64,000 nucleotides of DNA from positions 2,976,001-3,040,000 of the forward strand of contig OX596341.1 in the NCBI GenBank assembly GCA_951394405.1, given 5' to 3'. Below the pieces are notes generated by a model. The model saw nothing but the letters and a program-made list of their open reading frames with translations, was not told where the DNA came from and searched no databases. This DNA comes from Coprinellus micaceus. Its lineage: Eukaryota; Basidiomycota; Agaricomycetes; Agaricales; Psathyrellaceae. Below, one piece after another: positions 12,180 to 49,645 of this stretch. Made by a program: the position numbers and the translations under genes. Every line of letters begins with the position of its first letter. The first letter of the stretch is position 1.

Positions 12180-12580
12180 ATGTGGGACGACTCGTACTTT
12201 TATGTCTTGGAATACGAGGATAGGATGGTTGGGAGTTACCTAGGTGTGGGGGAGAAATGCCTTCAACACCAATCACCGACGAGCTACACAACCCAAGCAA
12301 GTTTTCGAAATTACTGATACTCTGCACGTCCACCTCGCTCACCATCGTTGCTTAGTTCTCCGTCATCTTCCGCAAGACTTTCGATATCCCAGAAGGCGTG
12401 GGACTCAAGTTCTACACACGAGACGCACCTGGTTGCTCCGGGAAGCCAGTCGAGATTCCTGATGAGACGCTGGAATACTTCCTACGCGCGCAATTCATTC
12501 ACCATTTTGGAGTCGAGCTCGTAAAGGCAAGTCAGAATGTGTCGCTCTCGGCGGACCAGGCTCCTCCAGAAGCAGAGTAG
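12180..12580 (+). CDS. Small two-exon beta-grasp-like family member, exon 1 doubtful
   Basis: Exon 2 (12356-12580) is clear: FSVIFRKTFDIPEGVGLKFY, a V-E-I-P strand, and the tail SLSADQAPPEAE shared with the copy at 29999. Exon 1 starts MWDDSYFYVLEYEDR. Relative to the sister copy, one extra base near 12305 puts the rest of exon 1 out of frame and leads to a TGA. The reading survives only if an earlier donor (GTGGGG after codon 22) is used, giving a shortened loop. Either a rapidly changing gene or a recent pseudogene. Function unknown; see the family finding. Confidence 0.6.
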
Positions 12581-13243
12581 CAGTGGCGAGGCGCGCGAGC
12601 ATACAGAGTGAGGGCGTGGGTGAGAGTGGGGATAGAATCTGTCCGGTGCGACACGCTATGCGTTAGGGAAGCATGCGGGGAATCGTTCACAAGATAGCCG
12701 AATCAAATCATACTAGCATCTCTGGACTCACACTGTACTTATGTAAATGTTCCGACCGTAATGTATCTGGTATCCAGTCAGGTATCCCCTTCACAAGCGC
12801 TCAATAACCTTCAAGCCTTCACCTTTAACATGCGTTGTTTCACCAGGATTCATGCCAAGGTGTGCTGGGGAGGTGGAGTCCGCTCCTCGGCGGCGTTGTG
12901 TCGCGTGTGAAGTGCCAGTGGGTCGGCAGACCCAGTACTACGCCTGAGTGCGACACCAGGGAAGCTCCGGTAAAGCACCCATTCGACATCGCCAACCTAC
13001 CCGTTCCAATTTAGAGGGTTCTAATACTCGTTCATAATCAAGGGTAGTACCGACCTGGCGAATAGTGAACGAAGGCCTGGACTCCTACGCCTTCTTCATC
13101 CCTCATGTTGATAGAGTTCGGTTCGGCTCAACCCACGTGAACTCATTTCACTTAAGTACATAACATCCTTTCACGGGGAGTCTTAAGCTCACACCCCACC
13201 TCATCGATCTCCCTAATCCCCTTAACCGTTAACAACACTGCCA

Positions 13244-13718
13244 ATGTCACATAACGCGAACGTTGGGGGCGTCCGCCCCGGACTCGGGATGTACGTTTTG
13301 GAGTACGAGGATCAGAGGATCGCATTTCGAACCGTGGATTGGCTCGTTAATGCGAAACAGAGTGTAAGTGGGCTAGTTGGGTCTACCCTGCGGCCTCCCT
13401 CTTCCATTGGACCTCCTTCCTCCCACACGGTCGCCCCAACCTGCGAGAGTAACTACCATAGCGTCGTAAACCAGCGGCATCCGTAGAATCGTCCTACCAC
13501 CCCACATACATGAAAAACGCACTTGCTCACGCAGCCCCGATTTTTTTTAGGACGTAGCCGACGTCTTCCGCAGAAAGTTCGGCATCCCGCCGAAGGCGGC
13601 GCTCAAGTTTTACACCAGGGACCTTGCCCCGGCTTTTGGGCACCCCGTCGAGATCGATCCGAGCCTGTGGTCGGAGCTGTTAGGCACTGTGCAGCATGTG
13701 GGTGCGGAACGGGTTTGA
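13244..13718 (+). CDS. Small two-exon beta-grasp-like family member, 95 aa
   Basis: Exons 13244-13363 and 13551-13718 (120 + 168 nt, phase-0 intron) give 95 aa. Exon 1 ends its first hairpin with YVLEYEDQRIAF. Exon 2 reads DVADVFRRKFGIPP, then LKFYTRDL, PVEIDPSLW and a final hydrophobic strand. The order strand-strand-helix-strand-strand with a G-I-P-P turn before a hydrophobic strand parallels ubiquitin's K-E-G-I-P-P turn. It is the sister of 28308-28781 with the same exon lengths. No signal peptide, so probably intracellular. Role unknown. Confidence 0.85.
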
Positions 13719-14125
13719 CCTTTGAAGCCAAGTCTGTGTGGGGAGGACGTGCCCCGGCGTGTTTACAGTCATCTGCGAACCAGACGTGCGGTCTGTTTTG
13801 CAAATGACTGTGAAGGGGGTTGGGGGCGGAGGATGTGTTTGGGAAGGAAATTATGTCTGTAGATATATGGATGTACAGTACGTAGGCGCTCCTGTTGCCT
13901 CTGGCCGGTGTAAATTTATTGTACTGCGACATGTTTGAGTCGTGGCTGTACCTCGCATCCACTTCCGAGCCGATTCACCACGATCTGAATTCCTCGATCC
14001 CAGTCAAATGGTGACTGCGGAATAGTGTGATGCACGCATGTCGCATCGGGCAGACAACCACGACCCAGTACCGTAATTCGGAGGCCAACGTGACGCACGC
14101 ACGTGGTACTAGATAATCGCGTCAC

Positions 14126-14156
14126 GGGCGCTTATTTTCAAATCCCATCGATCTTC
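14126..14156 (+). promoter_or_regulatory. Shared upstream box GGGCGCTTATTTTC + CATCGATCTTC
   Basis: GGGCGCTTATTTTC (14126-14139) followed six bases later by CATCGATCTTC (14146-14156) lies 29 bp before the ATG at 14185. The same two-part element, with the same order and near-identical spacing, occurs at 29234-29266, 30451-30480 and, weaker, 31218-31256, each upstream of a member or relict of the small family. It is probably a core promoter or activator site; the factor is unknown. Confidence 0.6.
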
Positions 14157-14184: not shown

Positions 14185-14623
14185 ATGTCGTGCGGGTGTG
14201 GACGCGTTGGGTACTATCAGCAGGGCGTCTTGATACTGCAGTACGGAAGCAGACGGGTCATGGTTGACCACATCAAGATGGCCCAGCGCCACGGGCTCAA
14301 CCAATGCGGTCTCAGCAAGGTACGTACCTTACTCTGGTGTCTTGTATCTCTTCCACTCGCTCTTGAATCTTTCAATCTATGATCTGAATTATTGGATATA
14401 GAGACTTGAGGGCTTATTTAAAAACTCGTTTGAGACGATTCCCGTTGACGCCCGACTCAAGTTCTACACGACGGATTTCGAGGTGTGTATGGGGCAGCGC
14501 GTTGAGATACCGGAGGAGGCGTTGGATGGTGCGATTCATCGGGCGAATGTTCGACTTTTGGGAGTTGAGCTTGATTGGACGGGGACTTCGTTTGCGGATG
14601 CGCCGCCGGGTGAGGGGGAATGA
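14185..14623 (+). CDS. Small two-exon beta-grasp-like family member, 118 aa
   Basis: Exons 14185-14319 and 14402-14623 (135 + 222 nt) encode 118 aa. Exon 1 holds VLILQYGSRRVMV. Exon 2 holds RLEGLFKNSFETIP, RLKFYTTDF, RVEIPEEALD, a VRLLGVELDW strand and the acidic tail SFADAPPGEGE, which matches the tails of the 12180 and 29999 copies. Four Cys in the N-terminal third (MSCGCG...) are peculiar to this copy. The shared promoter box lies just upstream. Function unknown. Confidence 0.85.
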
Positions 14624-15089
14624 GGTCGTCTAGTATAATTCGCATATGGATGCACGTGGTTGGGAAGGGTTGGTCAAGGAACCGTGGTGTAATATGTGCA
14701 GTACCAGTTTGCCAAGAGTCAGCTGAGTCGTGTGCGGTGCCGTCGTTATAGTAAAATTGAGTGGTTTTTGCTGTGAGGCAACCTTCGAGGACAAACGAGT
14801 ACCCGAAAGGCGGGGACCACCCTCATCTCACCTGGACCTGATAGCGGCCTACCAGAGGGTGTGAGAGGGGAGGTTATGAAATGCGCTCTGCGGCGGATTC
14901 CCGGGTGAGGACGGGGGTCTTCCTCTCCTTTATTCGCTATTGAAGCCTCATTCGCCACCTGTATCGAATAACTCACATCGAGGCCATTTCGAAATTCGAA
15001 CCAGGGCTTACTACGGAGTAGCTGGCGAATTAACCGAGCCATATATGTAAGGTATGTGGACTCGCTTCGCGCCCTGGCGCCAACTTTTG

Positions 15090-15215
15090 GACCTCATCGA
15101 TCTTCACGCGGAAAGCCTGAGGTCAAGGAAACAAGGAGGCCCGGAGGAGTGTATGGTGTTATTGAGAACTGTGACGCGTTACAGTACGGAAGCGCAGAGC
15201 GAATTCCCTTCCAAC
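15090..15215 (+). pseudogene. Relict promoter and exon 1 of a family member
   Basis: GGACCTCATCGATCTTC at about 15090 is the shared upstream box in + orientation. About 90 bp on, the plus strand has ALQYGSAE, which matches LQYGSRR of the 14185 gene at DNA level (cagtacggaagc). No exon 2 follows; instead the sequence runs into the inverted relict described next. Confidence 0.5.
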
Positions 15216-15800
15216 TCTCCTGGAACCCACCCCAACACCTTCTCCACACAACCAGATCAACCTCAACACGCTGCCCAAAGCTCGGGACAAGGTCCCCGGT
15301 GTAGAAGTAGAACTGGGGCACGGCCGAGTCGGTGGGATGCCGAACTTCGTTCAAGTTCAGAAGAGGTTGGGTACTTCCTACGTAGATATTTCGAGGGTGT
15401 GCGAGTAAGGGACCAAGGGTGTTCAAGTTCCTTGCGTGTGTGTGGGGTGGTTGTGCGGGCGAATGAGGCCGGTGTACGGGGTTAGTATCATGTACGAGGA
15501 AGGAGGAGGGAGGTGGGAGAAGGCGAGGAAGGAGAGAGGAGGCGAGGAAGGAGAGAGGAGGCGAGGAAGGAGAGAGGAGGCGAGGAAGGAGAGAGGAGGC
15601 GAGGAAGGAGAGAGGAGGCGAGGAAGGAGAGAGGTGGGGAGGGGGGTAGGGTACGCTGGGATAAGGTTTGTGCAAGGCGCTCACGTACGCTGCGTTTCGG
15701 GTTAACGAACCAATCCGTGTTTCAGGGTGTTATTTCCTGATCCTCGTACTCTACAATGTAAGTACATCGCGAGCGTGGGGCGGGCACCTGTACCGCTAGG
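15216..15800 (-). pseudogene. Family member disrupted by stops, with a minisatellite in its intron
   Basis: On the minus strand, YIVEYEDQEIT (about 15734-15770) matches exon 1 of the 13244 and 28308 genes. Exon 2 remains are at 15383-15216: a region matching K-F-G-I-P-P is preceded by two stops, and the frame changes before QFYFYTGDLVPSFGQRVEVD. The two parts are about 350 bp apart because the intron holds a 19-bp tandem array. Clearly broken. Confidence 0.75.
15522..15635. repeat. 19-bp minisatellite, six units
   Basis: Six head-to-tail units GGCGAGGAAGGAGAGAGGA (the last with a terminal T) lie inside the intron of the disrupted family member. A related but shorter GGGAAGA array lies in the intron of the 28308 gene at about 28605-28630. 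Confidence 0.95.
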
Positions 15801-16061: not shown

Positions 16062-16132
16062 GCATTGATGGTGTAGCGGTAACATTGGGTCTTCCCATGG
16101 CCTAGCTCCGGGTTCGACTCCCGGTCAATGCA
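16062..16132 (+). tRNA. tRNA-Gly(CCC)
   Basis: 71-nt tRNA without intron: acceptor GCATTGA/TCAATGC, D-arm TGGTGTAGCGGTAACA, anticodon stem GGGTC/GGCCT around loop TTCCCAT (anticodon CCC) and T-arm CCGGGTTCGACTCCCGG. The anticodon stem contains two G-U pairs. The short D-loop and 71-nt length are typical of glycine tRNAs. Confidence 0.88.
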
Positions 16133-17101: not shown

Positions 17102-20100
17102 CTGGACATCACCACCACCTCGGACAGCTTCTTCTCCGTCTCGAACAAACAGCCCTCCTTCGCACACATACCAGGCCTCGGTCCAACACGCCACATCCGG
17201 AGCCAGCTCCCGCCCATCCAGACACAACTTGAGTCTGCGTTTTCGACTCAGCCGCAACATCAGGCGTATCCTGGGTTGAGTTCGCCGCCTTTTGGTACGT
17301 TCCTCATCCTCTCCTCTCCCTCGCTTCGTCTTCCCTCCACCCCATTCATCCTCGTCCGCTCCCTCCACGTCCCCCTCCCCCTCCTCCTCCCTCCCTCAAC
17401 CCCACTCCCAAACCCTCACTAACCTCTCCCTCCCCCCAGCCGGCCCCCCACGCGTAACCATCCACCCCCCACCCATCATCTCCCCCACGGGCCGCGGCAG
17501 CGGCTCCATCTCCCCCGAGTCCTACTTCGCCGCCCCCGTCATCGAGCACACCAAGCGCAAGCGCGCGAGGCAGCAGGCGGAAGCGGTGAAGGCGCAGGCG
17601 ATGGCGGCTGCGACTCCGAATCCTGGTAAGTAGGATTTCGTTCGTTTGGTTGTCCGTCCTTTCTGCGTCTTCGCCCTTCCTTCCTTTCTACTCCGTCCTT
17701 TCTGCCCTGCACCCCTCCACACGCTGTTTCGGTATTCGGTGTAATACCTGAACCTTTGTCTGTCTCTGTCGTATCGACCCCGTCCATCTCTGTTCCGCCC
17801 ATACTGAACCCTTGTCCTGGTTTAGGCGCGACCCTAGCCCAACTCGCCGGCTTCGTCGACGACCCCACACGCAAAATCACAGTCCCTGTGGGCTTCGGGC
17901 CCGTCAAAACGAATACGTCCTCCGCCATAGGCGCTGTGGGGAGTAGTGGGGTTGGGGTCGTCACCGAGGAAGATCGAGAACGTGATAGGCGGAGGAGGGA
18001 GCGGAAGGAGAGGAGGGAGAGGGAGAGGGAGGGGAAGGGAGGTGGGGGTGGGAAGGACGGGAAGGACGGGAGGGAGGGGCATGGGAAGGACGGGAAGGAC
18101 GGGAGGGAGGGGCATGGGAAGGAGCATAAGAGTAGGGAGGGGAAGGAGAAAGAAGAGAGAGGGGGGCATAAGAGTAAGGAGGGGAAAGAGAAGGACGGGC
18201 ACGGACATAAGTCTAAGGAGAAAGACGGGAAGGAGCGCAAATCCCGCGACAAGGACGGCGGGAAGGATAAAGACAAACCAGCGAAAGACACCAAGAAACA
18301 CCGACATCGCTCAAAGTCTAAAGACCCGTCTTCCTCTAAATCGAAAGATAAAGGAAAAGCGAAGGAAAGTCACGCCGAGATACCTTCCTACGATTCCCAC
18401 CACGAACTCCAAGCACCCCCTCCTCCTACGAAAGTGGGACCGTTACACCCAGCTCTGAACCCCCACTCCCCTCACATCCTCTCACCCCACTCACCCAACC
18501 CGCACTCTATTATTCATTTACAAGCGAACCCAACCGCCCACCCGCACTTGCAAACTCATCTAAACGCCCACCCACACCTAACCGGCTCGCCCAACGGGCT
18601 CTCGTTCGCGGCTACGAACCTGGCGATGAGCACGCCGATCGATGCGTTGCACCCGCTTGGAGGGGGGTATAGCGACGAGGATCTGGGGGGTGGTGGTGAA
18701 GGGGAGGGACGTGAAGATAGGAGTGCGACGCCTACGCCTGCGACAGCATACCCAAGAGACAATACGGGATATCCACAAGACGAAACAGACTTCCCGTCCT
18801 TCCACCCCGGGTTCCCAAGTCAAGAGACGAGCACGGGGCAGCACCCTTCTGGCGATACGACCGCGTATACGCAGGGGGATACGACGAGTGGGTTCCCGCT
18901 CCCACATCCCCTTCACCACCCCGCTTCGTCTTCCGACCCTACACACGCGGGCGCCTACAGTGCCCTCGGTACGACCTTTGGGGACGGGAATACGAGCTTG
19001 GCTACGGGCCTCTATCCACCGAGACTGGAGGATGGGAGCAGCTACCCGACGGCGGAGCAACATGCGAGGCTTTTGAAGAACCTGGCGCCGGATTTGCCGC
19101 CGGAGGTTCCGACGCCGAGGAGTAATGTTTTCGCTTTCAATGCTCCTGTGACGGACTCGCCTCAGGGGATTGCGTTGCCGATTCCGATTGGGGCCCCGGG
19201 GCCTAGTGGGGCTGGGAGAGGGATGAGTGGGGGTGGTGGTGGACGAGGAGGAGGCAATGGTGTTGGAAGAGGAGGAGGAAGAGGAGGGGGAGGGGGAACC
19301 CAGCCGACGAGACCGAGTAACCTCAGGCAGGGCAGTTTACCAGCGTACTCGGCCCTGGATCCGTACGCGACGTTCGGCGGGGAGGGGAGTGGGGATACGT
19401 ATGGGGAGGGGTATGGGGTTGGCTTGGGGGCTGTGGGGAGTGCGTTTGGGGTTGGGAGGGGGACGGGGGCGGGGACGGAGAAGGGGGGGTTGGAGGGAAT
19501 ACGTGAGGGGGAGGGGGAGTATGATTTTGGGCAGCGTCGATATCAACAGCATGAACAGGAGCAGGAAAGGCAACAACATGAACATGAACATGAGAGGCAG
19601 CACCAACACGAAAGGCAGCCTGCACGGGGCGGGGGGAGTAGTGTGAGTTCGTATGGGGACCCAGATTACCCGCAGACGCTGCGGGGGGACTCGAGGTCTG
19701 AGTTCTCGCACCATGGTGAAGACGACGTCTCGCTTATTGGGAGTAATGCGAGTGATTTGCGGCCGAATGGGAGGATCCCTGGGGATGTGGATGAGGAGGA
19801 CGTTACGCGGGGATTGGATGTGTCGGATGGGGCGTTGGTTAACCCGAAGCGCGGTGGGGACCTTACTGGGGTTACGGGTGTGGGTGTGGGTGGAAGGGGA
19901 AGGGGAGCGGGGGAGAAGAGTGGGAGGAGTAGTGTGAGTAGGTTAGGGGGCGAGGTGGAGATGACGACGGGGACGGGGACGGAGTGGGTGCATGAGGAGA
20001 GTACGGGGTTGCCGAATCCGTATTCGAATGAGAGGAATTTGGGGTTGAATTTGGGGTTGGGTATGGGTATGGGTATGGGGGGTGGGTTGGGGCATGCGTT

Positions 20101-23100
20101 TTCGCCGGTTCCGGGGTCGGCGTCTGAGACTAAGGGGAAGGGGAAGTCGACTGAGGGAGGAGGGGGCACGAATGGGGAAGGGGGAGAAGGGGCGAGGAAG
20201 GACCCGACGTCGAGGCATAGTGCGATGTTGAGGCTTACGCCGAGTATGCTGGCGGGGTTTCTTATGAGAGCTGAGGGCGATTATGAGAGTTTGAGTCAGT
20301 TGTATACGCAGGTTATGGCGGAGGGGGCTATGGGTGAGTGGGATTTCGCGTTTCGGTGGGTGGAGAGGAATATGATACTCACGTTTGTTGGCTTGTCTAG
20401 CGAAACACCAAGCGAGCCTTATCCAAGCGAAGCTCGAGAAACAGCTCAAAGAGGCGCAGGAACGCGCTGAAGGTCTCCGGGGACGCGTCGAAGCTGTGGA
20501 GAAAGAGAAGCGTGAGCGCGACCAGGTCATCATCTCGCTCGAAAAGAAAGCGCGTTCGGGAGACAAGGAGCGGAAACACCTCGAACGGACTTTAAGTGAA
20601 CGCGAGAAAGAGGTGGAGGGCGAGAGGGAGAAGAGGAGGAGGGAGGAGGTAAAGAGGAGGGAAGTCGAGCGGAGCATCGAGCCTCTGCAAGCTCAAGCCG
20701 CCGAGCTCCAAATCGCTCTTACGCGCACGCAGACCGAGTCCACAGCCCGCCTTGCTGCTTTGAAGAGGGAGAAGGATGAAGTGGAGGGGACGTTGACGCT
20801 GCAGGCGGAGACCGCGAGGAGGGAGCTGGAGGATGTGAGGAGCCGGTATACGATGTTGGAGCTGCAGCATACGCATGTGCAGAATGATTTGGGGAAGGCG
20901 AAGAGTGCGGTTGCGAATTTGGAGGGGGCGGTGGAGGAGAGGGAGAGGGAGTTGGTGGAGGCGAGGAGTAGGGCGAGGAAGATGAGGGGGGAGGTTATGG
21001 AGATGGTTGCGAAGGTGGGTTTTTTTCTTGTTTCGTTCCCGCTCGGTACTGTGACTGACGATAATCGCAGGAGGAAGGCAGACGGGAAGGATGGGAAGAG
21101 GGTATGCGTCGCGGGCGCGGCATGGTTGAAGCCCTCGCTGCTGGCGTTGGTGTGGGCATGGGCGCAGGACAGGGACGTCTCGCAGGCCCGGGCGACGGGA
21201 TGGCGTACATCGAGGAAGTCGCCTCACCTGGAGGAGCCAACGGCGACCGTTCCCGCGGCGTGCACGACGAAGACGACGCCGACGCCCGGCGGCGCCGGAA
21301 GAAAAAGGAGAAGGAGCAGGAGAAGGCAAAGGAGAGGGAAGCTAGGGAGCGGGAACGGCGGGCGAGGGAGGAGGCGTTGAGCGAGGCGGATGCGAGCCAT
21401 GCGAGGGAGTTGAGTACGCTTTTGGCAAGGGTGGCGGAGTTGGAGGGGGCTGTGAGTTTGGAGAAGAGTAGGACGGTGGAGTTGGCGAGGCAGAGGGAGG
21501 CGGCGAAGAGTGAGGTTGGGTCTGTTGTGGGGAGGGTGTATGAGTTGGAGGGACGGCTTGAGAGAGAGAAGGCGGAGAGAGAGAGGGAGAGGGAGAGGTT
21601 GGAGCAGCAGATGAGTATGGACAGGGAGCGGGAGAAGGAGAGGGAGGAGAGGGAACGGGAGAGGAGGGAGAGGGAAGTTGAGAGGGAGGGCGACAGGGTT
21701 AGGGATGTGGAGAGGAAGAGAGCGCAGACTGAGATTAAGCGGGTCGAGGAGGAGAAGGAGGAGGTCGAACGGAAGAGGAGGCAGCGTGAGCGGGAGTTGG
21801 AAGAAGAGGAAGAGAAGCTGAGGAGGAGGATGAGGGAAATCGAGGAAGAGGACGAGAAGAGGCGGAAAGAGTTGGAGGAGGACGTTAAGAGGGGAAAGGT
21901 CAAAGAGGGCGAGGCCGACGAACTTAGGAAGCAGCTCGAGAAGGAGAAGGAGGAGAAACTAAAGTTGGAGCGGGAATTGAGGGACGCGAAGACACCTCAG
22001 ATCACGCTTTCGTACCTCCCCATGCCCCCTCCACCCCAACCGTCCGCATCGACCTCAGGACACCCGAGTATGAACATGCCCGTCCCCGGTGTGCCTTCCT
22101 CCGCCGCCAGCTCGACTACCCGCCGTCGACGCCGCGGAGGCACCGATTCTGGGTCTGAGAGCGACCTCGGCACACTCGACATCCTGAACCTACCCAACTT
22201 TGGCGACAACGGAGTCGTACCTGCCGACACCCGTCGAGATCGCGATCGTGATCACCGACGTCGACGCGAACGAGAACGACGGGATCTTAGCACCATTCGA
22301 GAGATGCCGAGCTGGACGAGTGGGCAGGACCCTAGTGGAGCACCCCCGTCGTGGGTGAACCAACCCCCGCCGAATTTGGCACACATGGGAGGTACGGGAT
22401 ATCCAACCGGCGCACCGTCGAACTATAACCCCGCCGGAGGTCCCATGAATATGCCAAATCCGGACGATTACTTGAGTCCCCCGAATGCGTACGGGAGTGG
22501 AACGGATAGGCCAAGTTTGAGGAAGATGGGGAGTGGGAGTTCGGGGAGTACGTATGATATTAGGGTCGTGCCGCCGGTGAGTGTTTGATTTTCGTTGGAT
22601 TTCGGTAGTGACAAGGGACGCTGGGGAACCTATGATGTTTTCAAGTCATTAAGGTTCATATGGACGACGCGAAAATCGTTGTTCAAATGAGGATCAATCG
22701 TTTATATTTCTGATTTCAATTCCCCTTTGATCTGCCTCCCGTCCTTTCAGCTCACTGACATCTACTTTACCCTGTCTTTTCCAGTCACGCCCTGATTCGT
22801 CCAACCACAATCACGATGGCGGTCACTACCACTATCCGCCTGCCTCCGGACCATACGGCGCGCCCTTCCTCAGCCCCAACAGCGCCCAAGCACAACCTCT
22901 TCCACACCCTCCTCGCGTCCCAGGTCCATACGATCGTCCTCCAGGCGAAGTACCCACCCAGCCCAATAGCCCGTACTCAGGCGTCCCTGGAGTTCTCCCA
23001 CCCGGGTTCATGCCTTCGTCGAGTGTAGGAATACCAACGCCCATTGTGAATGGTGAGGACATGGATGCGAAGAGAAAGCGGAGGGCTGAAAGGGAAGGCG

Positions 23101-24704
23101 TGATGGGTGGGTCGAGCATGCGACCTGATGCTGGTATGAATATGCCGCGCCCCGGGAGTTCGATGAGGCATGATGCAGGGCATGGTATGCCATCGCCCAC
23201 CGGTACCGCCCCTGGGGGGTTCGGGATGCCAGCTCCCATTGTGAACGGGGAGAACGTGGATGAGAGGAGGTCGCGTCGGCGGGAGAAGGAGGGTGTGATG
23301 GGAGGTTCGAGTATGCGACCTGACGCTGGAAGGGGTATGCCTCAACCTGAGAGCTCGATGCGCCCGGATGCAGGGTATGGGATGCCTTCCCCTGCAGGGT
23401 ACGGATCGCAGACACCAGCCTCGACACTTGGAAGGCGAACACCTGCAGGCGGAATTGGGATGCCAGAACCGAATGTACCGAACATCGTCCGCCCGCCAAC
23501 CAGATCGAGTGCGGGGGTGAGAACCCCAGCGACGACGACGAGTGGGTTTGGGATGCCTGAGCCGAGTGTACCGAACATTGTGAGGCCACCGACAAGAGGG
23601 ACGACTGTGGGCTCGAGGACGCCGGGGTCGGCGACAATTGGGATGCCAGAGCCTACAGTGCCGAATATCGTGCCTAGTGGAACAGGGAGGACGCCAGCTG
23701 GAGGATCGACGATAGGCATGCCTGAGCCAACTGTGCCCAACATTGTTGGGAGGACACCGTCAGGAGGGAGTACGATGGCGATGCCCGAACCCACCGTGCC
23801 GAATATTGTACCGTCGCCGAGTGGAGGTACGACGCAGACGTTGAGGAGGAAGGGGAAGAAGGAGAAGGGGAGTAGGAGAAACGGGAGCGGGAGCGGGATG
23901 AGCATGCCCGAACCCAGTGTTCCGAGCTTCCCGCCTACGAGCCCTGCTGGAGGAGGGCCGATGATGCCTGACCCCGACGTCATGGCCATGATGGGTGGGC
24001 ATGTCACGCCCGAGCCGCAATTCACTCCAGTTATTCCTCCTGGGGTGTCGCTTGGGACGGGAATGCCAGGAGGGATGGGCTCCCCAATGACGATGCCTCA
24101 ACCTACGATTGTGGATTATACCGGTGCTGGGACGAGTAGTGGGCGGCAGAGCACAGGGCCGTTACCCGTCCTTCCTTCGTCGTTGAGAGATCGTGGTGCG
24201 CCCGGGATGCCTACACCCACTATCCAGGGGATGCCGCTTGGGGGGTCGAGTCCAGTCATTCCAGGGGTGACGACGCCTTTAGGGACTGGGTTCCATGGGA
24301 CGACGGAAACAGGTGAACCGCCGTTCATTCCACCTGCAGATATGATGGCGAGAGCGACATCACCCGGGGGGCGGCCCCCTAATGGAGGGCAAGGAGGCAG
24401 CGGAGGCATCTTTGGAGGAATTGGGAGCGTGTTCGGAGGTAGTTCGTGGAGCGGGTGGGGGGGTGCGAACAATAATAGGAACGGCGGAGGAGGGGGTGAC
24501 GAAGATGAGGATGAAGGGGATGACGGAGGGCGATTCACGGGAGGATTCATTCCTCCGGGGTTGGAAGCGGGAGAGGAGGAGGATGAGGACATGGACAGCC
24601 AGACGGCGAGGAATACGAAGATGAACGCGGAGCTGAATGGGAGGATGACGATGCCTGACCCCGAGGTGCCTGGGAAGAGGGTCAAGAAAAAGAAGAAGAG
24701 GTAA
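17102..24704 (+). CDS. Very large low-complexity coiled-coil protein, ~2,300 aa
   Basis: Exons end or begin at 17294, 17440-17625, 17826-20333, 20401-21014, 21071-22576 and 22785-24704. All junctions are GT/AG and keep frame. The protein begins with a Ser/Pro-rich stretch (PSFAHIPGLG, PRVTIHPPP) and a short basic patch. Next comes a Lys/Glu/Gly-rich block with perfect KDGKDGREGHG duplication, a long Gly/Pro/His-rich stretch, then about 700 residues of highly charged coiled coil (20401-22000). It ends with a Pro/Gly/Met tail holding seven or so GMPEPxVPNIV-type repeats and a basic KKKKKR end. No catalytic domain is visible. The design suggests a structural or scaffold protein (cell end, septum, cytoskeleton or nuclear). 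The first exon's start is not resolved: no ATG precedes 17102 in frame. Confidence 0.75.
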
Positions 24705-35674: not shown

Positions 35675-35856
35675 ACGTGTCCATTGTGCCTGAGGCCCTG
35701 AATGTAACTCAGTTCATAGCATGTGTCTACCCCGAACATTCGTTGTATTTGTATGCATCGCGATCCATATTTGAAGACAGCCGGCTCGACAGAGTGCGTA
35801 CCCCAGGCCCAACGCTGAATTAGCACACCGAATGATAAGTATCGCTCACACCTGGC

Positions 35857-36964: not shown

Positions 36965-36987
36965 CGTATACTGCATAGGAGGGGGGA

Positions 36988-38196
36988 TCAAATGTCAAAC
37001 CTATCGAACCATCGGATGACGCTCTTCGCAGCGTCGGCCGCAGCCCAAGCTACCCAAAGGTTTAGTCATGGCGACATGCAGGGACGATGGCAAGGTTTCA
37101 GCGCACCTGCATTCTCATCGGAGAGATTGGCCCTCGTGGCAAAGCCATGCTGGGTTCCAGAATAGATCTGGGCATGATATGAGGCATTGTTGAAGGCCAA
37201 AATGTCGACAGCACGGTCGAGATTGGGAGCTGGGAAGCTCACATCTCGCGCTGCATGGGTGTGAACATTCGTTATAACACAAGCAGATGCAAAAGTGAGG
37301 GTAGCAAGTCTTACCAGCGCAGTTCATCAGCAACGGCTCTGATAGCGAGGGGTTAGTACTCGAGAGGTTTACCAATCGGAGGGGAGAGCTCACTCTTCAG
37401 TTGGTTGAAGTGATCTTCAGTCAGTTCGGTTGGGTGAGAGAAGGCTCCTGAGGAACAGATGGAGCGTCAGACAGTGGCTAGGTTGACCCACCTGCAGAGC
37501 TTACCCGCAACGACCTGGTCGGTAGCGGACATCTCCATCACATACTTAGCGCCAAAGCAATATCCAGCAGCACTATATTGTGCCTCGGGCCCTAGAGGAC
37601 AGAGGGTGCTTGTCAGGGCCAGCTTCCTTTCCTGAGATATAAAACCCTATCCTCACCATACCGACGACGCACGGCGTCGATCCACCCTGGAAGGGCAGCC
37701 TCGGCCTGTATCCTTGACTTGGCAATCCATTCGTCGAGAACAAAATCAGGGTCGAAAGGGACTTGGTCCAAGCTCGTGTGGTTCTGGATAGGATCTCCGA
37801 AGAAGTAGTCCAACCCCAGAACGTAGTATCCTACGGCACGTAGCATTAGTCCGAGCCGTGGGTCACGACTGTTTCGAGAGGCTACGCACCTTGGCTAGCA
37901 AAATAGTCCTGGATCAACATGTTGTTGATCCAAACCGCGCTGTACACGTCTGAGAAGAAGTATATGACCTTCTTCGGGTCCTTGCCCTGCCCCTTGAGCG
38001 GTTCTGCGACGTATGTATTCACGCCGGCGATGGTGATGTTCTTTCCTTGAGGCGTTCCGGGATGCAGCGAGCCCTTATAGCAGTCCGCCGTTGGCGCAAG
38101 AGCAAGTAAAGGGCTCGAAGATGTCGAGAGAGCCAACGAGGGGATGAGAGTGAGGAATGCGAGGAAACAAACGGCGCGGATGGCAAAGGAAACCAT
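36988..38196 (-). CDS. Secreted dienelactone-hydrolase-like protein 1, 283 aa
   Basis: Exons 38196-37890, 37830-37657, 37591-37505, 37447-37394, 37338-37315, 37250-37107 and 37049-36988 sum to 852 nt. A signal peptide (MVSFAIRAVCFLAFLTLIPS) precedes an alpha/beta-hydrolase core with the DLH-type triad. Cys172 is in AAGYCFGAKY, Asp218 is in ARDVSFP and His250 is in GTQHGFATR. AFSHPTELT is the family's substrate-side motif. Family members hydrolyse lactones or esters of aromatic-derived compounds; secretion is unusual but known in fungi. Both copies keep all three triad residues. The start was chosen because the signal peptide begins at once. Confidence 0.88.
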
Positions 38197-39660
38197 GTCT
38201 GGGGCAAGTGGCTTGGGATTTCTGAGTCGTGGCGACTGATGGGCCTTTATACCGGCCAAAGTCCTGCAAGGTTTGTAAGGCTACCCTTCTCCTCATATAT
38301 TTCACGTATACAACAAACGTTGCTCACCAATCCAATCGACATTCATGCGGAATATTCGGCTTCCCCTGCACAACATCGATCCTACTGCTGCGCCCGGAGC
38401 CTCTGCCACCTCAACCTACCCACACAAAAATAGCTACTTTGCTGATATCGGGGACAGCGGGAGTCAAAATCAACCCAGAGCACGAGAGGTATAATGTGTT
38501 ACTGGACCTAACAAGCGGCACCAGCTGAACCAGTTGACGATGTTGGCAAAATATTGTCCAGATGAAGTGTGGAGCAATATCCTCCACCATTTGCGACTCT
38601 CCCGTCTGTGTGTGCGAGCCGTTCGCGTTGAGACCCTGGCGGTCTTGAATCGTGACCCTTTAGATTGCGAGTCCAGTCGAACATTGAAGTTAGAAATACC
38701 CATAATTTGGAAAGAAAGACTAACCCATATATCGGAAGGTCGGCCAGGGTAGGTCCTCGAACCCGCTGTCGTCGGCTTGCTCATAAAAATGGCTTCCTGA
38801 TCGCATAGCATTAGGAAGCAATAGTGATTGGCCGTGGAAGTCAAAGTACCTTATCGGCGTATCTTCCTTCTGACACTGTGCCACTAGGCGCCGAGTTCCT
38901 GGTGACCCCGAAATGGGCGCTCTTCTCTCCAATCCTGGAAGGGGAACTGAACAACACCGAAGCTCATCATGGGTCTTGAATCATCCACGAAGGTTTTCGT
39001 AGGCCTCGGTAGCGCAATCACCACGACTGGATGCTGACTGAGTCTGGCTGGTTGGAGACAAGGTGTGTGTATTAATCCCGACGCCAATTGGCTCAGGCGG
39101 TCTTTCAGGGATCTAATCTAATCTAATCTAATCTAGTCTCGCTCTTGGATGTTCGTTCTTTAGGCTTGTCACTGGCCCTCTATGAGAGCGAGGAGAAGAC
39201 TGCGTATTTTCTACGTCCTAATTGGAGTACCCCCGGGCCCCGTCTCGATAAGCGCCCAGACAGCAGTCATCTCGCTGTTCCTATCGTTCGATATCGTCAA
39301 CAATTGACTCAAAGGTGGGGGCGACCTGTGTTCTGGGTTTGGCTCTAGTAGATTCCGGCAGGCGTAGTGAGAACCCTTCCTGCGGAGGGTGGAGCGCAAA
39401 TACGATGGGTTTGCAGTTCATTTCGGCAGGCTCGAATCCCAGATAACGGGAGGGGTCTGCAACGCGCTAAAACCGGAGAAAATGGAGTAGAGCATCCAAT
39501 CTGAACGCACCGGATTCACATGTGCAAATAAGCGCGTATGGGACGGCATTTTACGACATCGCCCCGGTTAAAACTTGAAGTATTAGAGGACGTGAGACGA
39601 GCAGTGAAAGTGAGTATGGGAGTGGCGTGCCGAATCAAATACTCGTTGGTGCACGAGAAA

Positions 39661-42640
39661 GTCGATAGTGGTGGAGTGGAGCCCTTGCCCGACCGAGAAC
39701 AAGGTCAGTCAGGGACGTCATCCTTCAGCGTTTACGGTGCCCACAGAAGGGTAGTCTCCTCTGGTCAAGCTATCATCCCGCGCACGTATAAGTGCCCGAA
39801 CCAGGAGTGCTCTAGCCACCAGTATCGATGGTCACCGGCGGCAACAAAACCGTCCTCGAAGCGCTGAGGGATTAAGAACCGGAACTAAAGAGACTGTTCA
39901 AGTCTTTGTTATAGATATATTTGCTTGATGGGCGCTCCATGATAAATAGGAGCCGTAGGCCCGTAAAGCATCGTCAACCTCCACTGAGTACAAGAATGGG
40001 GGCAAGGTGAGTGGGATATTGTTGCAGGGGGGGTTATGGTGAATCAAGGGTTGAAGCGATCGAAAAATCGAATGACGCTCTTCGCAGCATCGGCCGCAGC
40101 CCACGCTACCCGGGCTGTTAGTCACAGAGTCATGCCAGCGGAAGAGCAGGATTTAGACTCACCCGCGTTCTCATCAGAGAGGTTAGCCCTCGTCGCGAAC
40201 CCGTGCTGAGTCCCAGAGTAGATCTGAGTGTGATACGAGGCGTTCCTGGAAGTTAGGATATCGACGGCACGGTACAGGTTCGGAGCTGGGAAGCTCGCGT
40301 CTCGCTCTGAATGGGTGAGAACGTTCTTAGAGTCAAAGCGATACGAGGATGAAAGGCCATACCAGCGCAATTCATCAGCAACGGCTCTGACAGAGAGGTG
40401 TCAATATTCGGGGTTCAATGATCCACCAGAATGGGTTCTTACTCTTGATTTGGTTGAAATGATCCTCGGTCAGTTCGAAAGGGTGGGAGAATGATCCTGA
40501 AAGGAATGGAGGGTTACAACAAAGCCAAGTTAAGAGGGGCTGTGAACCTTACCTGCGACAACTTGATCGGTGGCGGATATTTCCATCACATATTTGGCGC
40601 CGAAGCAATACCCAGCAGCGTTATATTGAGCTTTCGGCCCTGGAAAATAGATTGTGCTGGTGAGCTTCATCCCCAAGTTGAGACGTAGAGAAAGCTTCTG
40701 ACCATACTGACGACGCACCGCGTCGATCCACGCAGGAAGGGCAGCCGCAGCTTGCTTCCTCGACTTTGCGATCCATTCGTCGAAGACAAAGTCGGGATCG
40801 AAAGGAACCAGGTCCAAACTCGTGTGATTTTGGATAGGATCTCCGAAGAAGTAGTCCAACCCCAGAACGTGGTATCCTACGGCACGTAGCATTAGTCCGA
40901 ACCATGGGTCCCGACTGTTTCGAGAGGCTACGCACCTTGGGTAGCAAAGTAGTCCTGGATCAGCATATTGTTGATCCAAACCGCGCTGTACACGTCAGAA
41001 AAGAAGAATATGACTTTCTTCGGGTCTTTATCGTGTCCCTTCGGGGGTTCGGCCACATAGGTATTCACCCCGGCGATGGTGACGTTTTTGCCCTGAGGTG
41101 TGCCAGTGTGCAGCACGCCCTTCACACAGTCCACCGTTGGGGCAAGGGCAAGCAACGGGCTCGGCGACGCCGAAAGAGTCAACGAGGGAAGGAGAGTGAG
41201 AAAGGCGAGGAAGCGAATTGCGCGACCGGCGAATGAAACCATGGCTGGGGAATGGCTTGGGGAAATCTGAGTCGTCACGACCAGCGGTCCTTTATAGCGG
41301 CTGCAAGAGGTGCGAGGTTTGTAAGTCCACCGTTCCCCTCATGGAGTTCACGTATACAACAAACGTTGCTCACTAATCCGGTCGGCGACCTCGCGGAAGA
41401 CCGGGCTTTCTCTGCACGCGTCGATCCTATAGCACCTTACAGAGCCTCGGTGCCACTTGCATATGCCCTGACAAAAATAGCCATTTCGCTGATATCGGGG
41501 ACAGCGGGCGCTACCCAGGGATCGGCAATGCAGCATCGGTTTGTGGAAGTACGACACCGCACTAGCCCAAGGCTGACGACGTCTCGGGGAGCCTGTGTAG
41601 ATTAAGGGTGGGGGAGGTAGGGGGTGATATATACGTCTACCTTTTGCAGCTCTTCCGTTTGCTAGCCTTTGGGACCTAGATCGTGGAACCAGTCGAGCAT
41701 TGAAGTGCGAGGCAACCATCGTGAGAGGATGATCAACCTACGTAGAGTCGGAGAGTGGGTCTCCGAATCCGTTGTCGTCGGCCTAACAACTTAAATGGTG
41801 AGCTGTTTCACAGAACATTAGCAAGCAATGCTTCTCGAGCGTGGAACGTGGAAGGCAACATACCTTATCGGTGAAGTTTGCCCCTGAAACTATGTAACTA
41901 GGCGCCGAGGTCCTGGCGACCCCGAAACGGGCGCTCCTTCCTCCAATCCTGGAAGGGTAACTGAACCTCATCGTGGGTCTCAGATCATCCACGAAGGTCT
42001 TAGGAGGCCGTCGGCAGTGTAATCGCCAACACTGTATCTACCCGGGGGCCTACGGTGGCGAGGCTCGACACCGGGGGGACATGCTGGCTGAGCATCTGAT
42101 TGGTTTAAACTTGCAAGATGCACAAGGTGTGAGTAGTAGCGCCGAAGCTGCTTGCATCAGGGATCTAATCTAATCTATGTAATCTAATCTCAGCTCCCAC
42201 CAGACGAGCAACCCAAGAAGGGCCAACGGTCTTACATGGGGGTTGTGCATTGCTCAAACTACGAGATCACGATAAGACGACGAGCGGCGGAGCGTTGAGA
42301 GGTGGACGGGACGCAGAGTGCGGTCCAACGCCCCGGAGAATGTCACACTGACAAGTGCGCACAGAAATACCTAGTGAGCGTACTTTCGGGTGCAGGGCAA
42401 ATGCGGTCGATGTGTTTTCAGTTTAGTTCGGCAGGCCAGGTACACAACTAGAATGGGTCTGCAACACACTCAAGCAGCGGGGGATACGAGGTAGGGCATC
42501 CAACCTGAATGCTTCGGGAACTCATGTGCAAACAAGCGCCGATGAGGCAGCATTTTCCGAAATCGTCTCAATTAAAAGCGTCACAGGACCTGGGACGAGC
42601 AATAGAATCGGGTAAGGAAGTGAGATGTCGAGTCGAGGTT
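39661..42640. repeat. Tandem duplication, unit 2
   Basis: Partner of 36420-39660 in the same orientation. Contains the second hydrolase and matching non-coding sequence on both sides. The pogo-like MITE at the 3' end of unit 1 has no counterpart here, so it arrived after the duplication. Confidence 0.8.
40044..41242 (-). CDS. Secreted dienelactone-hydrolase-like protein 2, 283 aa
   Basis: Exons 41242-40936, 40876-40703, 40639-40553, 40496-40443, 40386-40363, 40306-40163 and 40105-40044 have exactly the lengths of those in copy 1. The triad (Cys172 in AAGYCFGAKY, Asp in ERDASFP, His in GTQHGFATR) and signal peptide (MVSFAGRAIRFLAFLTLLPS) are kept. Differences are spread over the surface. The gene is in the same direction, 1.8 kb from copy 1, as part of a tandem duplication. 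Likely the same reaction class; substrate unknown. Confidence 0.88.
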
Positions 42641-42739: not shown

Positions 42740-43091
42740 TCAGGTTGAGTATGCAACTTCCATCACATTGACAAGCGGCATGACGTGTTTCATCGCAGAC
42801 TCCCCGATTTTAACCCTTTGTCCCGGACAATTCGCGAGCTCGGTGGTGAAAAAGGTCACTACTCCCCCATAGAATTGGAATTGTCGTCGCGCAACCTTTT
42901 CGAGATTCTGTGCAGAGAGTGAGAGAGAGTTCGAATGTTGGCTTCAGCCAGAAGTTGAGACCGACCTCGACGAGGTTCTGCGTGGGCCTCTCGACAAGGA
43001 CAGCGCTGTTGCCATACCTCAGCACAACGCATGCAAAGATCTTCAACGGCCTCTGCGGCTCGACATCGACGGGTGCAGCGGATGGTGGCAT
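42740..43091 (-). CDS. Small two-exon beta-grasp-like family member, ~97 aa
   Basis: Exon 1 (43091-42966) contains KIFACVVLRYGNSAVLVERP. Exon 2 (42907-42740) contains NLEKVARRQFQFYGG, VTFFTTELANCPGQRVKIGE, SAMKHVMP and a final strand VMEVAY. The intron would use a GTCGGT donor, weaker than in the other copies, so the exon 1 end is approximate. It is closest to the pseudogene at 31490 (both have E-S-A-M-K/N-H-V). Function unknown. Confidence 0.8.
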
Positions 43092-43315: not shown

Positions 43316-44146
43316 TCACTCCCACCACCCTCCACCATTATCGTCATCAATGCTTCCGATGCCTCCACCATGTACTTGGGCGTTCGACCTCCCGGCAGGC
43401 GGGGTAGACACAGGCGGCCTTCTTATAGTGTCGACGATGACGCTCCGAATACCAGGGAGGAGGGTCTTCCACGCGTCCGTCGCGATCTCAACTTGCTGCC
43501 CAACCAAACCCGCCATATCCGTCGCAAAGAAGTTTTGGGTGCCTTTCAGCGGTGGTTGGTTGATGGCGGGGAACTGTTCTATTGCGATCCTCGAGAGTTG
43601 CTGTTGAAAATCAAAGGATCCGTTAAATGTTAGACATTGAGGTGACAAGTGTGAACGGGACAACGCACTCTGATCGGGTCCTCGGTTCCAGTGGGCGTCG
43701 GCTTCCCAACGATGACGCTCTCGCCCTGGAATGTAACGACCATACACTGTGGATGAACGATCCCAGGCTGCGCCTTTGTTGGAGGCGGAGGAGCATCACT
43801 AGGCGGTGGGTTCTCTCCCTCAGACTCGACGAGAATGTAGCCAAGGACCGGAATCAACTTCTCCCATGCACTAGGGATAATTCTGACTCTGTCGAAGCCC
43901 GCAATGTCCATGGCGTAGAACTTGATTGGGGCGCCCGTAGGGATTTCGGGGAAGCGTCGGCGGGCTTCTGGTTCAGCGTCCTGTGTATGAAGTGGTGGGT
44001 CTTTTCGGCCAGGGGAGATTGGTTTGTAAATAGCTTACGGACGAGAAGGTGCTGGGCGTAACGACGAGCCTCCTCCCCCGGTATTCGAACGCTACACATC
44101 CGGCGACTCGGATACCATCGTTCTGCGGGGTGGGAGAGGAAGACAT
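43316..44146 (-). CDS. Double-module member of the beta-grasp-like family, 234 aa
   Basis: Exons 44146-44039, 43980-43669 and 43600-43316 (108 + 312 + 285 nt). Module 1: VAGCVAFEYRGRRLVV, then EARRRFPEIPTG, IKFYAMDIAG, VRIIPSAWEKLI, LGYILVE. A Pro-rich linker (NPPPSDAPPPPTK) leads to module 2: HPQCMVVTFQGESVIVGKP, then QLSRIAIEQFPAI, QNFFATDMAGLVGQQVEI, DAWKTLLPGI. Each intron falls at the family's usual site, after the first hairpin of each module, so the gene is a fusion of two complete units. A Gly/Asp-rich tail follows. Function unknown. Confidence 0.85.
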
Positions 44147-44489: not shown

Positions 44490-44905
44490 TCAAATAGACC
44501 CGACCCCGATAATAACACGAGTAATCAACGGGAGAACCTCCGCCCAGGCCTCTGTGTCCACTTCTACAAGGTGACCTTTATATCCTGGAATGTCCGGCGT
44601 ATGGAAGGTGAAGTACGCTTCGCTATCCAGTCGGTACGGGTGTTGATGATCATAAAAGAGGCATTCGACGAGGGAGTCCATATCCTAGAGGGATAAGGTA
44701 CATATTCAGTTCATAGACGTGGTAAACAGCAGGATCCTACGGAAGGACGCACCGTCCGAGACACCTCCGGCCCAGGTTTCTTGCTCGCGATGACACGCCC
44801 GTCGAATTCCAGAATAAGGATGTTAGATGAGGCGGGGATTGGCACGGCCTTCGGGGAAGTGGGAATCGGCTTGGTAGGCGAGCTGGTGGGCTCTCCTGGG
44901 GACAT
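44490..44905 (-). CDS. Small two-exon beta-grasp-like family member, 115 aa
   Basis: Exons 44905-44753 and 44684-44490 (153 + 195 nt, phase 0). After a Pro/Ser-rich leader (MSPGEPTSSPTKPIPTSPK) comes NILILEFDGRVIASKKP. Exon 2 has SLVECLFYDHQHPYRL, AYFTFHTPDIPGYKGHLVEV, DTEAWAEVLPLITRVIIG. The frame stays open upstream to 45166, so a longer N-terminus is possible; this start fits the other copies. Function unknown. Confidence 0.82.
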
Positions 44906-45564: not shown

Positions 45565-45945
45565 CTACTCGTCCGGGTAGTCGTGCGGATGGACGAGGTC
45601 TATCTCTAGGTCGCTTATGACGGGGAACACCTCAACGAGCGCATCCTGATCTATAAGAACGCGTAGCCCAGGGCGTTCCGGCATAGTCGTCGTATGGTAT
45701 ACGACATCAAATCCCTGCGGGGGCGCAAGAGCGACTTGATAGAAAAGTGCTGCAGCCAGGGTTCTGACGTCCTATCCGGCGGGTTTGGGTGAGGGGAGGG
45801 AGAGGGAGAGGAATATATGAGAGCGAACCTTTACAGAGTTGATATTGTTGGGTTTCTTGATGACCTTCCCGGTTTCTCCGTATTGCATCAGGATGTAGCC
45901 CGGGCTTGTGGGCGCTGCGGTGGGAGTGGTGGCGGACGTGGACAT
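45565..45945 (-). CDS. Small two-exon beta-grasp-like family member, 107 aa
   Basis: Exons 45945-45829 and 45771-45565 (117 + 207 nt, phase 0). Exon 1: PTSPGYILMQYGETGKVIKK. Exon 2: DVRTLAAALFYQVALAPPQG, FDVVYHTTTMPERPGL, VEVFPVISDLEIDLVHP. A diverged member: the S-F-Y-T strand is V-V-Y-H-T and the Trp is missing, but intron site and overall order hold. Between it and the 44490 gene no further gene is supported. Function unknown. Confidence 0.75.
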
Positions 45946-46806: not shown

Positions 46807-47297
46807 CCGTGTTCCTAGGTCCTCTGTCTCTGTATTTAGAGCTCTTTCAGGAGAGTGTTCGGGGGAAGATGGAGGGGAACGATGAGGAAGAGGACGGCGA
46901 TGACATGGTCGTCACAGCCAAGCAGGCACCGTCAAACCCATGCCCTAGTTGGGATGCCGAAGGCCCGTGCGCGGCCATCACTAGCTCCGGAAATAGCCGC
47001 GGCGGGAATTAGCGCCCGCCACCGATTCAGCCGCCCGTCAACCACTTATTGTCGTTGACCATGGCTGACCGCCAAACTCAGGGATGTGTGCCCGTAATGT
47101 CTGACTTGCGAGACGGTGGGGTGGGTGTCAGCCCCTTCTCTCCTCAGATACTTAAGCGTGGACGGAGGCCTTCGAAATGCCACGTCTGTCTCCCACATCC
47201 TTCTATCCTATTCAGTTCCTATCGACTTTCCTTTCACAACATTAACTCTACAGCCTAACCAACACACTGCAACTACCTTTCACTCTTTAATCTGATC

Positions 47298-48906
47298 ATG
47301 AGACTCAGCTTGGTACCCTCACTCCTACTCATCGCACTTCCTGCTGTACTGTCGACGCCGACGTGGTGGCTGAACCAGGAGGGGCACGATTCCTCCTCTT
47401 CCTCCACATCGACTGAGACCATCTCGTCGACCACTACCTCCACCTCGGATACCTCTTCCCTATCCATGGCGGGTTCGGGCTCCGAGCCTGGATCGAACGC
47501 CAATGCATGTTCCCGTACGTGGCTCGTTTATCGTTCGCTCGCCGTTGAGCCTGACTGTGGAATAGCGAACGAAGGATCCGGTCGGGGCATTGGCGTCACA
47601 TACGCCAGCGATCCTAACGTCCACTCCGCAGCATGGTACCGCCAAAACGGTACGCTCATCCTCCTATTATCTCTCTTTACCTCCCCACATACAAACCAAG
47701 CTAACGTCAACCATGCCTAGACATCCGAATCCTCAACTTCGCACTAATCATCTCCCACCTCTCTTCCGCCTTCTACACCTCCTCCCTCTCCCGGTACTCC
47801 CAAAAGTGTTTCGAGGAGAAAGGCTACGAATCCTGGGTCCGGAACCGGTTCGAGCAGATCGCCGAGCGGGAAGAGGTGCATGTGCGGTTCTTGGAGGAGG
47901 CGATACGGAGTGGTGGGGGTGAGGCGGTGGGGAGGTGTGGGTATATTTTGTGAGTCGCCTTTCTTCGTCCGCGTCGTGGTGGAGGATTAACAGGGATGCG
48001 ACGGCGATGTAGCCCCGACAGAGAACCTCCACATGCCATCGAGCTCAGCGAAGCCATCTCAAGCCTCGCCGTTTCGGCACTTACTGGGGCTCTGAAATAC
48101 ATCGAAAGCAAGGTCGGTCCTCTCTTCTTCCCTCTTCTCCTCCTTCCAACGTATCGACGGCTGACGCGGGTGTCCTTGCATCTAGGAATACGCCAGTTCC
48201 CTCGGCTCCATCCTCGGCGTCGAAGCCCGCGTCTCGTCCTGGGTTAACAGCGCAGTCAAGAAACAGAGCCCGTGGAATATGGCGTTCGAGGTTCGTCTCT
48301 CTTCCCCCTCCTCCCTTCCCATCCTTGCTCACCCACACTCCTCCTCTACCACCCATTCAAACCTGCCCCCTATAGACCCCCCTAACACTCTCCCAATCCT
48401 ACTCCATCCTCCAAAACTTCATCTCCCCCTCCTCCTGCCCAGAACACAACGCCTCCCTCCTCCCAATCGGCCTCCAATCCTTCCCACCCCTCCGCATTCC
48501 CTCACACGTCGAACCTGGGGTAGAGATCGAGGTGGGGTTCGATGAGGCAAGGTATAGAGAAGGGAACGCGCTGTATGGGGCGTCCATGGTGGGGACGGGG
48601 ACGTATGTCCTGCCTGTGAGGGTTGTTGAGGAGCGCGGTGCGCAGCAGGTTAGCGAGGAGAGTCAGGGTGGGAGTCAGGGTGAGCAGGAACACGAGAACG
48701 AGAACCAGGAGGTGAAGCGGAGGTTCTTCCTCACCCCGCCCGAAGAACTCCGGGGTATGGGGACGGTCTACATTACGATCGTTCAGACTGAGTCGGGGAG
48801 TGAGGGCGCGGTGGATGTGGGGCGGATGGTGAGGGACGAGAATACGGTTGCGGGGCCTGCGATTGTAGTGTTTCCGTTTGATTCGAGGGGGGAGGGTATT
48901 GAGTAA
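47298..48906 (+). CDS. Secreted ferritin-like (Rds1-type) protein, 438 aa
   Basis: Exons 47298-47649, 47721-47949, 48013-48112, 48186-48290 and 48376-48906 sum to 1317 nt. A signal peptide (MRLSLVPSLLLIALPAVLST) and a Ser/Thr-rich stretch precede the ferritin-like helical core: DIRILNFALIISHLSSAFY, FEQIAEREEVHVRFLEEAI, ELSEAISSLAVSALTGALKY. The E-R-E-E-x-H pattern is the usual metal-site-like motif. A C-terminal beta-type domain follows. This order is that of fungal Rds1-like stress or sexual-stage proteins. The tail has an E/N/Q-rich insert (about 48650-48720). Confidence 0.85.
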
Positions 48907-49043
48907 GCGAGGGCGTATTGAGGAGTATTGTATATGTAGGGAGCAGGAATTGGGCTCAGCTACGGGGAGAGATGAAAGGGAGGATTGTTGTAATAATAGT
49001 TACTGTACATTAGGATCGGGATATGTAACGGCCGTTACTTTAC

Positions 49044-49645
49044 TTACGCTGAATATGAGACGTGGATCGCGTTTGTGGAGATGATGCAGGCGGAGAGAAC
49101 GATAACCAGAAGCACAATTCGCGAGATGAACCACTCCCAAACCCTCCATACCATCGCCAGCGTCGCTCGCACGCGACTCGACTTGAGGGGCGGTAGCTTT
49201 CCATGATCTTCATTAATAGTTGAGGTGGCACGAACAATTATTTTCGATGTCCTTCGGAACACGCTCTGCCACGCTTCTTCCGAGATGCGCACTTCCTCTT
49301 TGTGCGTGCCTTCGAGTTCGTCGGTGTAGAGCCGGATGTTGATTGTATCCCCTTGAAGGTAGGGTTCGTGGAAATGGTCTTCGCGGATGCGTTTGCAGAA
49401 GGCCTGTCAATGGGAGGTGTGAGTTCCCCACGTTCCGCTCTTCCGGGGTATCTATTGTCGAGAATGATCTATTATATACTTACGTGGTAGTCCCTTGCCA
49501 TCTCGTCCATGGAAGGCCGAAGTATCACCATTCGCTCAGGTTCGGTCGCGTCGAGGAAGAAGTGTTCCAGGACCAACACGCTTTCCCTTTCGCATGACGA
49601 AGAGTGGCAGGGTTTGAGTTGCAGTGGCGCTGTGGCACCTTCCAT
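49044..49645 (-). CDS. Membrane-anchored beta-grasp-like family member, 173 aa
   Basis: Exons 49645-49484 and 49403-49044 (162 + 360 nt, phase 0). Exon 1 has ESVLVLEHFFL, then ERMVILRPSMDEMARDYH. Exon 2 has AFCKRIREDHF, TINIRLYTDELEGTHKEEV, SEEAWQSVFRRTSKIIV. The family core ends there. A basic linker and a strong C-terminal membrane helix (FISRIVLLVIVLSACIISTN) follow, ending AIHVSYSA. Tail anchoring would place the module on the cytosolic face of a membrane. An AATAAGCGCCC box lies about 245 bp upstream. Function unknown. Confidence 0.82.

Follow-up and report, generated by a model that had tools for sequence, protein, structure and literature searches.

What do the short, mutually similar loci encode that crowd a 64,000-nucleotide stretch of the Coprinellus micaceus genome, and do their products belong among the ubiquitin-like proteins? 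The stretch (hereafter the window) is C8:2976001-3040000 on contig OX596341.1, called C8 here, and its far end lies ~150 kb short of the end of this contig of 3190649 bases. The analysis covers this single genome throughout (50.3 Mb, 17 contigs). An earlier note on the window had described a multi-copy family of small two-exon proteins with a ubiquitin-like outline. We find that the 13 loci share a common ancestry and that their domain is homologous to one standing directly ahead of ubiquitin in two genes on contig C9.

Gene models were enumerated at each locus and are predicted from DNA alone. All 13 loci hold the two-exon unit or its remains, as the earlier note had claimed, and ten of them (13244, 14185, 28308, 29999, 30684, 42740, 43316, 44490, 45565, and 49044) yield complete open models with 11 modules in total. 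The single phase-0 intron site claimed for the family is found in each of these 11 modules, where the intron precedes the helix. The described range from intact to broken copies is likewise borne out, with exon 1 of 12180 damaged and 15216 and 31490 reduced to relics, as is the variety of tails: some are acidic with Pro-Pro, 49044 ends in a tail anchor, and 43316 is a double module. The copies are lettered A to M below, where E is the expect value against an exon-2 profile built with the copy left out, unless stated otherwise.

12180-12580, plus strand: copy A, a doubtful gene, because its damaged exon 1 stops short after the first strand; exon 2 (12356-12580) is undamaged (E 7.9e-15, A itself outside the profile).
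13244-13718, plus strand: copy B, exons 13244-13363 and 13551-13718, 95 aa; E 1.5e-14.
14185-14623, plus strand: copy C, exons 14185-14319 and 14402-14623, 118 aa, acidic Pro tail; E 2.8e-11.
15216-15765, minus strand: copy D, a relic with exon remains out of frame with each other and a stop in exon 1; exon-2 profile E 2.2e-4.
28308-28781, minus strand: copy E, exons 28781-28662 and 28475-28308, 95 aa, inverted duplicate of B; E 5e-13.
29999-30408, minus strand: copy F, exons 30408-30271 and 30226-29999, 121 aa, inverted duplicate of A; E 7.9e-10.
30684-31134, minus strand: copy G, exons 31134-31006 and 30920-30684, 121 aa; E 3.5e-9.
31490-31740, minus strand: copy H, a relic in two frames; profile matches at E 1.9e-5 and 5.7e-4.
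42740-43091, minus strand: copy I, exons 43091-42966 and 42907-42740, 97 aa; E 3e-11.
43316-44146, minus strand: copy J, a double module with exons 44146-44039, 43980-43669, and 43600-43316 and two introns, each in phase 0; E 2.1e-9 and 2.2e-11.
44490-44905, minus strand: copy K, exons 44905-44753 and 44684-44490, 115 aa; E 1.8e-9.
45565-45945, minus strand: copy L, exons 45945-45835 and 45771-45565, 105 aa; E 1.2e-6.
49044-49645, minus strand: copy M, exons 49645-49484 and 49403-49044, 173 aa, hydrophobic C-terminal anchor (mean hydropathy 2.42 across 19 residues); E 6.6e-6.
12041-13713, plus strand: block holding copies A and B, recurring inverted at 30548-28313 (F and E; two blastn alignments, one of 929 columns at 76.4% and one of 680 at 69.1%).

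That the 13 loci descend from a common ancestor rests on a leave-one-out ranking. The intact exon-2 modules were dropped one at a time, with B and E removed as a pair, and the profile built from those remaining was used to rank 4454 open reading frames (ORFs) of at least 20 aa. All 11 exon-2 modules outrank every ORF outside the 13 loci (E 1.5e-14 to 6.6e-6), while the top unrelated ORF sits at rank 16 with E of at least 0.11 and is outranked by copy A, too. The full exon-2 profile recovers the 13 loci, and the next ORF in the window and its 80 kb of flanks stands at E 0.44. Since nothing in these flanks (40 kb per side) matches better than E 0.44 with the exon-2 profile or E 0.58 with the exon-1 profile, no further copy was detected beside the cluster. 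A common promoter is not claimed, because each of six upstream patterns tried reaches at most three of 11 copies.

The younger duplicates show coding constraint. For B versus E the ratio of nonsynonymous to synonymous change (dN/dS) is 0.35, a value as extreme in 0.2% of 2000 neutral placements, and for exon 2 of 12180 versus 29999 it is 0.41 (2.35% of 2000). Both young pairs, B/E and A/F exon 2, are therefore under purifying selection. The pairs B-F and B-C have the same skew, with synonymous sites close to saturation. Decay is visible beside this constraint: relic D is 68.7% identical in DNA to copy E across 182 columns, and a minisatellite at 15506-15642 (19-base unit, 7.2 copies) separates its exon remains. 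On the plus strand, facing D, what looks by eye like a decayed first exon of the C type (LQYGS) follows a CTCATCGATCTT stretch at ~15060-15230. Also by eye, the tails of A, C, F, G, and J have in common an acidic stretch resembling Ala-Asp-x-Pro-Pro (SADQAPPE, FADAPPGE, SADEPPVE, SDAPPPP), which may be a short binding motif.

Does the family extend beyond the window? Queries to the genome were modules B, G, J2, L, and M (five of the window's 11), the C1 copy they uncovered, a family consensus drawn by eye, a single ULD_2 protein, and the C9 domain; copies were found on C1, C5, and C9. Besides the cluster itself, the five module queries recover a single place on C1 and places on C4 at E 0.18 and 6.6. 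That the C1 match arose by chance was considered and overturned: B, J2, and M each find this place, where an exon shows the pattern of the family together with splice sites that pair in phase 0. In fact, the C1 copy has both exons, joined by a GTGAGT...CAG pair, with hydrophobic stretches downstream by eye, and the C1 gene and copy M are reciprocal best matches outside themselves. The consensus matches C5:2687295-2687519 (E 9.8e-6), C9:1041381-1041596 (E 2.3e-4), and C9:1035591-1035806 (E 1.0e-3). The C5 copy contains stops and looks decayed. Weak matches are the two C4 places already named (E 6.55 and 0.176), a third on C4 (E 0.395), and, with the consensus, C3:653658-653813 (E 0.013).

The C9 copies place the family next to ubiquitin. 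When the window family is aligned with the C9/C5 domain, hhalign returns a probability of 99.06% and a score of 90.2, while shuffles reach at most 15.7 (n=60), which establishes the homology. On C9 the entire domain lies in a single exon with no intron at the family site, and a ubiquitin domain (PF00240, 74 and 66.5 bits) follows directly in both genes, with a further region behind it, one exon of which (198 aa) is without a Pfam match. The ORF of the C9 domain closes with its own stop; in both genes a consensus donor overlaps this stop at an equivalent position (GAAGA before GTAAGC in one and before GTGAGC in the other), and a phase-2 intron from that donor puts the domain in frame with ubiquitin. 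A script listed 29 joinings for one gene, this one among them, and in the other gene the joining was picked out by eye in the DNA; a domain-ubiquitin fusion is likely but not proven. The ubiquitin parts end in RLRGA in one gene and RLTGG in the other, each followed by an extension. The two genes with their C-terminal region (L005 and L006) span C9 1033721-1043554, and L005 appears by eye to have an extra upstream copy of that region.

The earlier note had proposed a beta-grasp outline, which is supported by the predicted fold and by the occurrence of the same domain in the two C9 genes, where it precedes ubiquitin and can be joined to it in frame. A first fold model was dropped; it had no hairpin, reached Z of at most 2.9, and had unrelated proteins among its rows. 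In the second model, which was used instead and rests on few sequences, DSSP gives the predicted elements E16-21, E24-29, H98-112, E120-124, E135-137, H139-145, and E151-156, the order of ubiquitin, after exclusion of H30-42, E68-75, and E83-90, which are of low confidence and lie within or beside an intron-derived stretch. This model matches solved beta-grasp members, ISG15 among them, across the whole domain. At the level of the model only, then, the order is hairpin-helix-strand-strand-helix-strand, and the nearest in structure are PB1 and other ubiquitin-fold interaction domains. The likeness of the G-I-P-P turn to that of ubiquitin, to which the note had pointed, deserves little weight, as family and ubiquitin profiles align at 0.39% with 13 of 60 shuffles equal or better, and for the C9 domain versus ubiquitin 89 of 100 shuffles score as high.

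No named family accounts for the domain, in agreement with the note. Pfam gives no credible match for the 11 modules, nor for B, C, E, F, J, and M scanned at full length; matches to Flavi_NS5 (E 0.036) and PGG (E 0.24), each in one of the 11 modules, were rejected as chance level. Profile matches to ubiquitin-type modifiers (PF00240) and to ULD_2 (PF22893) are found in none of the 11 modules, PB1 (PF00564) matches no module and none of the six whole proteins, and a PDB sequence search returned nothing for the family alignment, the consensus, or the C9 domain.

What, then, might these proteins do? With a probability that we put a little above even, the loci encode fast-evolving stand-alone beta-grasp domains of ~75-100 residues, unnamed in Pfam, that act as non-covalent docking adaptors. 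Such a role fits because the proteins are small, lack any Pfam enzyme match, include a double module and a tail-anchored copy, and have relatives adjoining ubiquitin on C9. They would reside in the cytosol and bind through the beta-grasp surface; candidate partners are the same domain, a ubiquitin-fold domain, or the receptor of such a domain. Copies J and M, as a double module and a membrane-anchored form, would bridge or localize that contact, and the C9 form would display the docking domain beside ubiquitin. The cluster turns over by tandem and inverted duplication and by decay. Three of the ten gene models are weaker than the rest: copy F requires a 44-base intron with a GTGCGC donor, copy I a GTCGGT donor, and for copy K other donors are possible.

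The alternative that survives best, and which we rate just short of an even chance, is that the family forms a stand-alone branch of fungal ULD_2, sharing its origin but too diverged for profiles to detect. ULD_2 is matched 11 times in the genome at E 0.01 or better; nine of these hits pass the Pfam cut-off, and nine are distinct by exon sequence. ULD_2 and the family have a similar element order, and both carry Trp in the region of the last helix. Furthermore, a phase-0 intron immediately in front of the helix, ten codons ahead of the helix-end Phe, is possible at all 11 ULD_2 loci (exon starts being placed by motif, and the donor being one of several candidates), a spacing shared by nine of 12 family modules (M has 11, G 16, and the C1 copy 28), although phase 0 is common and the C9 domain has no intron at this site. 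The C9 domain aligns to a ULD_2 profile built from seven of the 11 loci, in a matching register that brings both Phe residues together, with a score of 22.9 equalled by none of 100 shuffles but an hhalign probability of just 23.5%. Compared directly, family and ULD_2 reach only 0.58%, with five of 60 shuffles as high, and 0.24% under other settings. The shuffle test is not specific to ULD_2, because the C9 domain beats 100 of 100 shuffles against PB1 as well, and on account of this control our confidence in ULD_2 descent was lowered from even to slightly below even. The ULD_2 copies that were translated beyond the domain continue into a CPxCGK-type motif, whereas the window copies have an acidic tail, a membrane anchor, or nothing. 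A literature search found no paper on PF22893, and none linking ubiquitin-like or PB1 domains to NACHT/NLR proteins in mushrooms, though the family may still be published. ULD_2 copies on C3 and C13 (L045/L046), and two on C10 (L048/L049), are identical over the matched exon and are therefore recent duplications.

In structure, the nearer likeness is to PB1, while in gene structure it is to fungal ULD_2. PB1 chains fill the top eight rows of the structural comparison (row 1 we also take to be a PB1 chain), and the family and C9 profiles each outscore 100 of 100 shuffles against a profile of three of the genome's five PB1 matches. That the loci encode PB1-type domains engaged in self-assembly or head-to-tail pairing is nevertheless unlikely: the hhalign probabilities are only 2.4% (family) and 4.8% (C9 domain), the modules escape PF00564 though it finds five PB1 domains in this genome, the Z gap to ubiquitin-like and FERM domains is ~1, and the alignment has by eye no clear acidic OPCA motif.

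Quite unlikely, in our judgment, is the bolder proposal that a single unrecognized fungal ubiquitin-linked recognition system is divided between the window family and the C9 genes, each forming one half. Here, the C9 proteins would show ubiquitin behind the docking domain, and the cluster would supply diversifying, sometimes membrane-bound versions that compete for or relay that contact, for instance in self/non-self or stress signaling. A role in recognition read from gene neighborhood and a birth-and-death pattern, which is frequent among recognition genes, is very unlikely. The one NACHT ORF nearby is a weak sign; the Crinkler N-terminal domain is absent from the Pfam matches listed (E up to 10), the presence of its model in that Pfam copy being unchecked; and, of 23 ORFs of at least 110 aa around the C1 copy, the two that were scanned lack any Pfam match. 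Less probable still is a collection of mostly dying orphan genes without function, as relics D and H, the C5 copy, and damaged A might suggest, given the purifying selection in both young pairs and the ten open models. Finally, a conjugated ubiquitin-like modifier is barely credible despite the predicted fold and the C9 adjacency, because none of 11 C-termini (ten genes and 12180) ends in Gly-Gly, as the earlier note had observed in declining to imply conjugation, and the tails differ (acidic, membrane anchor, or none).

Ubiquitin shares with the family the beta-grasp fold predicted for the latter and stands right behind the family domain on C9, but there is no sequence match and the family lacks a terminal Gly-Gly. 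In this genome, several of the matches to ubiquitin are interrupted near residues 31-36, which we take to be at or behind the end of the ubiquitin helix, whereas the family intron precedes the helix. The C9 genes, if joined, and copy J, with the family domain alone, resemble ISG15 and FAT10 in having two beta-grasp domains per chain; unlike these, the C9 genes combine one unnamed domain, ubiquitin, and a region, their scanned exons holding only the ubiquitin Pfam match, and conjugation of the C9 form is conjecture. Beta-grasp domains underlie much of eukaryotic signaling, and a young, still-duplicating cluster with ubiquitin-adjacent forms in one genome is unusual. If fold and fusion are true, the ubiquitin network of fungi would gain an unnamed docking domain, and the cluster, with ten copies intact, others in ruins, one doubled, and one anchored, would provide a natural series for the gain and loss of partners.

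The cluster is accompanied in the window by the following features.

6580-7947, plus strand: NACHT/NPHP3_N P-loop ORF (Pfam E 2.1e-17), ~4 kb before the first family copy.
17630-24704, plus strand: three long ORFs of 946, 507, and 657 aa, none matched in Pfam at E 0.01 or better.
34055-35679: 70% inverted duplicate of 53420-51802; the ORF tested in it (34453-34884) has no Pfam match.
51916-52671 and 56185-56658, minus strand: tyrosinase (PF00264) matches, E 2.9e-5 and 4.8e-5.
36987-38461 and 40043-41508: direct repeat of ~1.5 kb, 76% identity.
16062-16132 (ccc) and 27205-27276 (tcc), plus strand: tRNA-Gly genes.
47297-48907, plus strand: Ferritin_2 gene beside copy M (E 7.3e-14, one exon), with a hydrophobic start by eye.

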